Assembly (NCBI GenBank): GCA_027018875.1
Contig: JALUYA010000017.1
Span: 16,935 to 80,934, forward strand
Direction of reading: 5' to 3'
Source of the DNA: Gammaproteobacteria bacterium
GTDB lineage: Bacteria; Pseudomonadota; Gammaproteobacteria; JAKDMP01
Length of the DNA stretch: 64,000 nucleotides
Of this stretch, positions 49,802 to 52,526 are shown in pieces. Below the pieces are notes generated by a model, which saw only the letters and a program-made list of their open reading frames with translations, searched no databases and was not told the DNA's origin. The stretch's first letter is position 1. Every line of letters begins with the position of its first letter. The translations under genes and the position numbers were made by a program.

Positions 49802-50461
49802 TCAGGGGATCAGTGTTTGCGCCTGTACCTCATCGGCCACCAAGAGCACGTCGGCACCCCGGTGGGCGAATAAACCGACGGTTACGACGCCGGCGATCTG
49901 GCCAAATTCCGCTTCCAAACCGGGGGGATCGGTGATACGAAGATTTTTGATGTCGATAATGTGATTCCCATTGTCGGTGACAAATCCCTCCCGCCACTCG
50001 GGGCGCCCGCCGCGGGCACTCAACTCCCGGGCGACATAGCTGCGGGCCATGGGGATGACTTCTATGGGCAGCCCGAAATCTCCGAGCACATCGACCAGCT
50101 TGGGCCGGTGGATCATGCAGATAAAGCGCCGACTCGCCGCGGCAATAATCTTCTCCCGCGTCAACGCACCCCCGCCCCCCTTGATCAGATGCCCGTGGCG
50201 TGTGGCTTCATCGGCGCCATCTACGTACACCGGTAAAGTGCCGGCCTCGTTGAGATCGATGACATCGACTCCAATGGCCTCGAGTCGGCGGGCCGTATCA
50301 GCGGAGCTTGCCACCGCCCCCTTGAGTCGCCGGGCCGATGGCTCAAGGGCCGTGATGAAATGCCGTACCGTAGAGCCGCTGCCAACTCCGATGATGTCGT
50401 AACCACGGATATGAACGAGCGCTGCCTTGGCGGCAACTTGTTTGGCCTGTTCCGAATTCAT
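49802..50461 (-). CDS. rpiA: Ribose-5-phosphate isomerase A
   Basis: IIGVGSGSTVRHFITAL; VDGADEATRHGHLIKGGGGALTREKIIAAASRRFICMIHRPKLVDVLG. Confidence 0.94.
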   Translation of the reverse strand: MNSEQAKQVAAKAALVHIRGYDIIGVGSGSTVRHFITALEPSARRLKGAVASSADTARRLEAIGVDVIDLNEAGTLPVYVDGADEATRHGHLIKGGGGALTREKIIAAASRRFICMIHRPKLVDVLGDFGLPIEVIPMARSYVARELSARGGRPEWREGFVTDNGNHIIDIKNLRITDPPGLEAEFGQIAGVVTVGLFAHRGADVLLVADEVQAQTLIP

Positions 50462-50479
50462 GCGTATTCCTTGAGAAAA

Positions 50480-50507
50480 GGGCACACACCGAACCTGGTG
50501 CGTGCCC
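50480..50507 (-). terminator. Rho-independent terminator of the H1-like gene
   Basis: Minus strand GGGCACGCACCAGGTTCGGTGTGTGCCC followed by TTTT; stem of about 10-11 bp with one mismatch. Confidence 0.75.
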
Positions 50508-50516
50508 TGATGATAT

Positions 50517-50810
50517 TCACCGTGTCGCGGTCTTCTTGCGTGTCGCGGTCTTCTTGCGTGTTGCGGTCTTCTTGCGTGTTGCGGTCTTCTTGCGTGTTGC
50601 GGTCTTCTTGCGTGTTGCGGTCTTCTTGCGCGTTGCGGTCTTCTTGCGCGTTGCGGTCTTCTTGCGCGTTGCGGTCTTCTTGCGCGTTGCGGTCTTCTTG
50701 CGCGTTGCGGTCTTCTTGCGCGTTGCGGCCTTCTTGGCTAGTACCTTACGGCGTGCGGCCTGCGAACGGGCGATAACTTTCTTTTTAGCAGTAGTTTTCC
50801 CGGTTGCCAT
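50517..50810 (-). CDS. Histone H1-like repetitive basic DNA-binding protein
   Basis: 97 aa: MATGKTTAKKKVIARSQAARRKVLAKKA followed by 11 x ATRKKT plus ATR; Lys/Arg/Ala/Thr-rich like bacterial H1-like/AlgP tails; promoter and terminator flank it. Confidence 0.85.
   Translation of the reverse strand: MATGKTTAKKKVIARSQAARRKVLAKKAATRKKTATRKKTATRKKTATRKKTATRKKTATRKKTATRKKTATRKKTATRKKTATRKKTATRKKTATR
50520..50726 (-). repeat. Tandem array of 18-bp units encoding the ATRKKT repeats
   Basis: Near-identical 18-bp units (plus strand cgYgtYgcggtcttcttg), about 11.5 copies. Confidence 0.97.
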
Positions 50811-50846
50811 GAACAGATCTCCCTGGAAGTTGAAAGCTCAAGTCGA

Positions 50847-50876
50847 AGTATAGATACATTTGCATAAAAATGTCAC
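50847..50876 (-). promoter_or_regulatory. Candidate sigma70 promoter for the H1-like gene
   Basis: Minus strand GTGACA - 18 bp - TATACT, about 37 bp upstream of the start codon. Confidence 0.6.
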
Positions 50877-51370
50877 CTCATACCTATTACTGATGCGAAA
50901 AAACACCAAATAAGTTTGGTTCGCATGCATGCTGTGGGCAAAATGGCTAATGCAATTCCAATGGCTGTTGCTTCCCGGTATGGCCGATAGTCGGCTTTCC
51001 CGGTACCGGAAAATAAACCATCAAATTCGGTATCGTTCCGCGGGATGGTAAGGCTGAGCGGCAGGCATGGCAGCGGATGGGCCCGCCATCCCCCGGCGCG
51101 TGGCGTCAGATCGAGTGTTTGGCTTGTAGCGGAGATTTCACGGATTAAATCGAGTCGGACCGGGATGGGCGCCGGATGCAATCCACGGCTTTCCCACGCT
51201 GCCCGACATAGCGCAACTTGAATGGTGAAAAAGGCGTTGCCCCAACTCGCATGTTGCGCGGATGGCTCCGGACCCGGTAATTGCATTCCCCCCCTATATG
51301 GTGATGCCATTGCGTTTCAGGTCGGCAGTGCCAATTCACCGGGTTCGGACTGTAGAATCCGGTAAGTCAC

Positions 51371-51973
51371 TTACACGGGCTCTTGCCGGAGTGGGTTGAT
51401 CACAAGGGTCTGTGCTTCGACTACCACCAGATCGAGTGGTACATCCCACGGCGCTGTTTGCAGCATCTCCTGTTGTTGCCAAGCATAAGCATATCCACAC
51501 AACACCGGGAGGCTTGCGGGACGATCGAGTTTAAACGCAAAGGTGCGGTCGTAATAGCCGGCGCCACTGCCGAGGCGATTCCCCCGGGAATCAAACGCCA
51601 GCAAAGGGACAATCACGAAATCCAACTTCTCGGCCGGAATCGATTCATCCGTTTGCGGTTCCGGAATTCCGAAGCGATTCGGTTGCATGCTTGCCTGGGG
51701 GCTCCAGGGAGAAAAAACCATGGTGTCGGCATCTGTAATTCTGGGTACGAATACCTGTTTCCCGCGGGTAATGGAATCGGCAAGTACAAGACCGGGATCA
51801 AGTTCGCTTGCCACCGCGAGGTACCCGCCAAGGCACCGCGCCCGCCGATACCCACACTGGGCAATGATCTGCTCGGCGGCTTGTTCCGCGGCCGATTGCC
51901 GCCGCTGCGGGGCGATGTTGTGGCGGCGTTGACGAAGTGTCCGCCGTAAAAGTATTCGGGAATCGGTTGACAT
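51371..51973 (-). CDS. 5-formyltetrahydrofolate cyclo-ligase family protein
   Basis: MSTDSRILLRRTLRQRRHNI; VIVPLLAFDSRGNRLGSGAGYYDRTFA; the ORF track N-terminal extension (to 52093) runs into the 6S RNA. Confidence 0.92.
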   Translation of the reverse strand: MSTDSRILLRRTLRQRRHNIAPQRRQSAAEQAAEQIIAQCGYRRARCLGGYLAVASELDPGLVLADSITRGKQVFVPRITDADTMVFSPWSPQASMQPNRFGIPEPQTDESIPAEKLDFVIVPLLAFDSRGNRLGSGAGYYDRTFAFKLDRPASLPVLCGYAYAWQQQEMLQTAPWDVPLDLVVVEAQTLVINPLRQEPV

Positions 51974-51980
51974 GAAAATG

Positions 51981-52163
51981 GGTATCCTCCGCGCGCGCCG
52001 TTGCCAGTGGTACCCTTGAACCAAAGGTTCAAGGGGGAATGGACCCCGACGACTCAAGCTTACCGCCACGAGGCGGTTCTGCTCACCGTACATCGACGGT
52101 CATATTCCAATTGCAGATCAGGTTCGAAGGGTTAGCACCGACATCGAACGCCGCAGAGGATAC
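51981..52163 (-). ncRNA. ssrS: 6S RNA
   Basis: Between zapA and the 5-FCL gene (conserved ssrS locus); closing stem TATCCTC...GAGGATA; 3' arm hairpin CCCTTGAACC-TTT-GGTTCAAGGG matching the E. coli 6S CCUUGAACC...GGUUCAAGG element. Ends estimated from pairing. Confidence 0.88.
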
Positions 52164-52235: not shown

Positions 52236-52526
52236 TCATGTTTCCGTCGCGGCCAGGGCCAGGCGTAGATGTTCCAGGCGCTGGGTGACGGCCTGGCCCA
52301 GCCTGTCACTGAAGGCCTCTGCTTCCAGGTTTTGATAAGCCAGATTCAGGGCAACCATCACCGCGATGCGTTCGAAACCGATTAGTTTGCCGCTGTCGCG
52401 GACTTCCTCCATTCGCTGATTAAGCAGATCGGCGGCTTTGAGCAATAACTGCCGCTCTTCGGGCGGGCAGGCGACCCGGTATTCGCGATCCAGAATGTGC
52501 AGGCTGACTTGCCGGGGATCGCTCAT
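52236..52526 (-). CDS. zapA: Cell division protein ZapA
   Basis: VSLHILDREYRVACPPEERQLLLKAADLLNQRMEEVRDSGKLIGFERIAVMVALNLAYQ. Confidence 0.93.
   Translation of the reverse strand: MSDPRQVSLHILDREYRVACPPEERQLLLKAADLLNQRMEEVRDSGKLIGFERIAVMVALNLAYQNLEAEAFSDRLGQAVTQRLEHLRLALAATET

Follow-up and report, generated by a model that had tools for sequence, protein, structure and literature searches.

What does a gene encode when most of its product is one six-residue unit repeated over and over, and can such a gene be traced beyond its own genome? Basic proteins of low complexity tend to be set aside because they resist alignment, and it is seldom known which of them are orthologues. In the window, by which we mean the whole 64-kb stretch of DNA analysed here, the ORF list and a tandem-array search both pointed to a minus-strand ORF of 97 amino acids (50517-50810; ATG at 50810-50808, TGA at 50519-50517) in which residues 29-97, 69 amino acids in all, are exactly 11 copies of ATRKKT followed by ATR. 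We refer to it as the H1-like gene.

The repeat gene and its sister-genus orthologue

The protein contains 29 Lys, 15 Arg, 26 Thr and 19 Ala, with no Asp, Glu or Pro. Its net charge is +43 at pH 7, its pI is 12 and Lys plus Arg make up 45% of its residues; each ATRKKT unit adds +3 per six residues, and the whole protein carries about one charge per two residues. The repeats are encoded by 11.7 copies of an 18-bp unit with 98% match (50527-50736), the sole strong tandem array that a repeat scan found within the 64-kb window. The copies differ by synonymous changes only (GCA/GCG and ACG/ACA, with CGC/CGG at the last Arg), and these variants are grouped in blocks, the pattern expected of recent in-frame slippage. 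A second copy of the gene was not found in the genome (2.21 Mb, 95% complete). Ahead of the repeats lies a non-repeat N-terminal segment of 28 amino acids (50727-50810, minus strand), whose core ARSQAARRKVLAKK is kept in the sister genus in a codon-by-codon comparison. AlphaFold2, run on the single sequence and with low pTM, places one helix at residues 3-29 and gives the repeats no structure; the ATRKKT tail is predicted to be disordered.

The gene carries its own expression signals on the minus strand. A promoter scan identified a -35 element GTGACA (50876-50871), an 18-nt spacer and a -10 element TATACT (50852-50847), together spanning 50847-50876; the TATACT lies 42 nt upstream of the ATG, and relatives retain it at that spacing. 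A Shine-Dalgarno (SD) sequence, GGGAGA, is found at 50818-50823. Between the gene and rpiA, folding reveals an intrinsic terminator hairpin followed by a short T run (50479-50508; -24.1 kcal/mol, z = -5.1), which is absent from the list produced by a generic terminator scan of the window. The earlier note's account of the ORF, now placed on the minus strand, of its lack of acidic residues and of its own promoter and terminator holds on all these points, and family matches agree with the rpiA and 5-formyltetrahydrofolate cyclo-ligase (5-FCL) neighbours that it named. The H1-tail-like basic composition that it described is likewise supported, and makes nucleic-acid binding plausible. Modification of the Thr residues, which it suggested, may occur; the one Hanks-type kinase in the genome proves nothing in this respect. 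The plus strand is open as well at 50536-50853 and would encode a hydrophobic MRVAVFL-type repeat, but we discounted this antisense ORF as a side effect of the array: synonymous divergence, SD, promoter and terminator are all those of a minus-strand gene.

In the one sister-genus genome compared (G001), the H1-like gene occupies the equivalent place, although a contig break cuts through the repeat: contig C159, which carries zapA-5-FCL-EVE, ends with the 5' portion of the gene, and contig C86 opens with the 3' portion, followed by rpiA. Absence or frameshift of the ORF in all close relatives, which the earlier note had set against its own reading, is thus not what we found. The sister protein begins MATRKTAKRKK, and both genera have the core ARSQAARRKVxAKK. 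Eleven of the 14 core codons differ between the two, ten synonymously and one non-synonymously. The sister repeat unit is seven residues long, AG[T/A/G]RKKK, versus the six-residue ATRKKT of the window, which means that one repeat has taken the place of another. Common to the two genera are the TATACT box (TCTATACTTCG in the window, TCTATACTTGT in the sister) and the terminator stem motif GGGCACGC...GTGTGCCC, with z = -5.1 for each hairpin. At the level of sequence comparison, the repeat ORF is a real gene and not a stray minisatellite, and its positional orthology, the conservation of its promoter, leader and terminator, and the turnover of its repeat are established.

The island and its positional family

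The earlier note had the gene standing alone; it lies instead within a conserved island. In minus-strand order this comprises zapA (52236-52526, PF05164), the 6S RNA gene ssrS (51982-52162; RF00013, 72.9 bits against a gathering threshold of 46.4), 5-FCL (fau/ygfA; 51371-51973, by family match), a decayed EVE-domain gene with in-frame stops (50913-51263; tblastn over the window, E = 1e-7, and stops read), the H1-like gene and rpiA (ribose-5-phosphate isomerase A; 49802-50461, by family match, with a likely start at ATG 50461, some 56 nt past the stop codon of the H1-like gene). The genes ygfB-pepP-ubiH-ubiI diverge on the opposite strand. The longest 5-FCL ORF reaches 52093 and overlaps 6S RNA, so translation probably begins at the ATG near 51973. 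The EVE gene is intact in the sister genus (locus L057, 361-834). A minus-strand ORF of 145 amino acids at 50873-51310 was treated as spurious, as it has no family match and shares its DNA with the EVE remnant in a different frame.

6S RNA is a growth-phase regulator. A ZapA-SsrS-FAU1-EVE island across beta- and gammaproteobacteria has been tied to the switch between exponential and stationary growth (Bell et al. 2020, PMC7641849). The text of that study names ZapA/B, 6S, FAU1, EVE, YgfB, PepP, UbiH/I, RpiA and IlvA, the last two as additional genes that are often present, and does not mention an H1-like gene (PMC7641849); nor did we find one described in the 6S/EVE island in the open-licence literature.

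Alignment of low-complexity proteins is unreliable, and a multiple alignment of the repeats misplaces the conserved core. For this reason we judged orthology by position, by leader and promoter and, in the sister genus only, by the core. When 370 Gammaproteobacteria genomes were searched with a profile, 22 gave a strong match; 11 of these have it at the island and six have it adjoining or fused to adenylate kinase. In rpiA-anchored loci, selected regardless of H1-like content, the 313 kb that lie on the rpiA strand upstream of that gene contain 17 basic SD-preceded ORFs, whereas the other ~2.5 Mb of searched strand contain none. Of 21 named loci in which zapA lies upstream of rpiA, 14 carry the gene; it is absent from about 7 of these 21 island-bearing loci and is therefore dispensable in some lineages. 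A locus-blind pattern (TATACT, 22-50 nt, GGAG, 4-12 nt, ATG GCN NNN AAR AAR) matched in 44 of the 370 genomes, against two for a reversed-pattern control. In 34 of the 44 the match encodes a K/R-rich protein, and all 34 lie in the zapA-6S-fau-EVE-rpiA island, where an inverted ilvA usually separates the H1-like gene from rpiA (in one genome, G125, rpiA and ilvA are rearranged); the other ten matches are L27, GAPDH-like and unrelated starts.

Proteins in the pattern set range from 40 to 194 amino acids. The earlier note called the window protein minimal, yet at the same site relatives go down to 16 amino acids: Steroidobacteraceae and similar genomes have micro-versions of 16-28 residues, such as MAKAKKKGKKKASKKK and MATKKKAAKKKATKKKAAKKK, that come with the family leader and often a strong hairpin. 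We found such micro-ORFs upstream of rpiA at ten loci, and they are likely unannotated small proteins. Differences among them lean silent, although numbers are small (four silent and no replacing changes between loci L068 and L111). Charge is kept among relatives while the repeat units change. Two traits put forward as distinctive turn out to be shared: about one third of pattern-found members also have no proline, and the Thr-containing ATRKK unit recurs in relatives (L234 is one example).

The island family, as defined in this analysis, comprises genes between 5-FCL/EVE and rpiA (or ilvA-rpiA) on the same strand, with TATACT 35-62 nt before the ATG, an SD, their own terminator and a K/R-rich, acid-free, low-complexity product. 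The window gene has all of these, and the sister-genus gene lies at the same position. Six island proteins with otherwise differing repeats share a C-terminal signature, RPRKV[TS]PRKK.

H1-like tails also occur elsewhere. At six loci the tail is a C-terminal fusion to adenylate kinase and at three the H1-like gene directly follows adk, making adk a second fixed home for such tails in at least nine gammaproteobacterial genomes; a histone-tail-like extension is an odd thing to find on an essential metabolic enzyme. Two further loci combine a DksA-type C-terminal zinc-finger sequence with an H1-like basic N-terminal extension.

The leader is conserved across the family. TATACT lies 5' of the ATG in 16 of 16 homology-found genes; in the rpiA-anchored set it stands at the family distance in 14 of 17, with AAATACT in the other three, compared to 1 of 378 other genes. 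The consensus of 37 non-redundant leaders reads CTRGNATTT, 14 nt, TATACT-CA and then a G/C-rich stretch; because this set is partly pattern-found its TATACT column is not independent, whereas the -35-like element is. Family leaders do not always have a C directly before TATACT. Ribosomal protein L27 starts in seven genomes have the same TATACT...GGAG spacing upstream.

The promoter bears on timing. Location of rpoS beside nlpD is a classic gene context, and the genome has a sigma-factor gene directly downstream of an nlpD-like gene, rpoS-like at 338 bits against the TIGR02394 cut-off of 379. TATACT, CTATACT and KCTAYRCTTAA are published -10 forms for σS (PMC5650638), CTATACT being the P. aeruginosa form (PMC9793710), and the window box TCTATACTTCG agrees with KCTAYRCTTAA at 9 of 11 positions (consensus from PMC5650638). 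Control by σS is plausible but only suggested, because TATACT is also a fair σ70 -10, GTGACA is a reasonable -35 and the preceding C is not constant. Control by ppGpp and σ70 is an alternative that would also fit, and the G/C-rich stretch after the -10 would suit it.

Proposed function and alternatives

We give slightly better than an even chance to a reading in which the gene encodes a disordered nucleic-acid condenser resembling a protamine or an H1 tail, expressed from its own promoter with growth-phase timing as a member of the island, its tail evolved by slippage. The short helical N-terminus and the ATRKKT tail of this small polycation would bind nucleic acid without sequence specificity, as a linker-histone tail or protamine does, and so contribute to compaction of the nucleoid and perhaps of RNA. 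Transcription from the conserved TATACT-type promoter would most likely be growth-phase-dependent, and through its place in the zapA-6S RNA-fau-EVE-rpiA island the gene may serve the exponential/stationary switch proposed for that island. In-frame slippage of the 18-bp repeat would change tail length and unit while charge density is kept. We infer binding, condensation and timing from sequence features: polyanion binding by the H1-like protein is expected because of its charge and disorder. DNA is one candidate for the true partner, given that a polycation of this size would bind polyanions of any kind. The rest of the genome, with one Hanks-type kinase, a polyphosphate kinase (PPK) and four HU/IHF genes, constrains the choice little.

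The alternative with most standing, unlikely but to be taken seriously, is that the target is RNA or ribosomes rather than DNA, for example 6S RNA, rRNA, ribosome hibernation or RNA condensates. 6S RNA and EVE, a modified-base-binding domain, are immediately nearby; the 16-28 residue micro-versions are too short for obvious DNA bridging; and Chlamydia Hc2 reportedly binds RNA more strongly than Hc1 (PMC2848022). The argument is nonetheless one of adjacency, and in the window EVE has decayed while the H1-like gene is intact, so the H1-like gene does not depend on EVE.

Somewhat less probable still is a partnership with polyphosphate or storage granules like that of AlgP and PhaF, in which the cationic tail would tie polyphosphate granules to the nucleoid rather than compact DNA. 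The KPAA tail of AlgP is required for the spacing of polyphosphate granules (PMC9239181), and the genome has PPK; this enzyme is common, however, and so counts for little. A Pfam search found no granule or phasin N-terminal domain in the window protein, and the gene sits in the zapA-6S-EVE island, away from ppk or pha genes.

A minisatellite that expands by itself, its reading frame open by chance and its product under no selection, would account for the near-identical 18-bp copies, which imply recent expansion, and for a unit that differs between the two genera. This reading is largely refuted and now very improbable: promoter, SD and terminator are conserved, the core peptide diverges synonymously and the K/R-rich product keeps its position class-wide, and a meaningless minisatellite is ruled out because the sister genus keeps place, core, TATACT and terminator. 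Just as improbable is that the ORF serves as a leader, with its translation regulating rpiA, close as that gene is (~56 nt) in the window. A strong terminator lies between the two, and most relatives have ilvA next, in the opposite orientation, leaving nothing directly downstream to regulate.

Returning to the condenser reading, we propose tentatively, with confidence a little short of even, that the window gene belongs to an undescribed class-wide orthologous family of tail-only nucleoid or RNA condensers of 16 to ~190 amino acids, which would be a missing member of the growth-phase island, kept in place by one ancient promoter, with a repeat length freely tuned by slippage. A fixed locus and a fixed promoter trace one H1-tail-like gene across dissimilar repeats and a roughly tenfold size range, the 6S RNA/EVE/FAU1 island gains a plausible nucleoid-condensing component, and a direct genetic test becomes possible in culturable relatives.

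Comparison with known systems

The window protein resembles the HC2, Hc1 and linker-histone families, hist_H1_lk_Burk and AlgP/PhaF at most in how it may work. Membership of a curated H1-like family is not supported: Pfam, including HC2, Hc1 and linker histone, returned no family at E<=1 for the window protein, NCBIfam NF038053 (hist_H1_lk_Burk) scored 14.6 bits against a cut-off of 80, and across the H1-like family no Pfam or NCBIfam model exceeded its cut-off. The nearest approach to Pfam HC2 was one sub-threshold relative (15.9 bits, cut-off 40). hist_H1_lk_Burk shares a tail-like H1 composition with the window protein. We rejected it as the parent family, as it is above cut-off in one of 370 genomes and elsewhere than the island; that lone member adjoins a ribonucleotide-reductase small-subunit-like gene.

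The Coxiella proteins Hq1 and ScvA, small basic DNA-binding proteins enriched in the stationary, condensed-nucleoid form of that gammaproteobacterium (PMC4766238), are similar at the level of this description. Closer in architecture are the C-terminal domains of Pseudomonas AlgP and PhaF, which likewise are disordered polycationic tandem-repeat tails of variable repeat number and bind DNA, as do KPAA-repeat peptides and the AlgP tail (PMC9239181). AlgP, however, has a 124-residue helical N-terminal domain and KPAA repeats, in contrast to 28 N-terminal residues and no proline here, and the helical or phasin N-terminal domain plus KPAA repeats of AlgP/PhaF are not found in the window protein.

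The island of Bell et al. contains the position of the window gene, although its published gene list does not include an H1-like gene (PMC7641849). Chlamydia Hc2 (HctB) and Bordetella BpH1 are, like the window protein, small stand-alone proteins of short Lys/Arg/Ala/Thr repeats with even charge spacing, and their length changes by repeat gain and loss as in the H1-like family; both are described as binding DNA (PMC2848022). Hc2 units are pentamers within 36-residue elements with conserved flanks, unlike those of the window protein (PMC2848022), and the island and promoter are, as far as tested, specific to the H1-like family.
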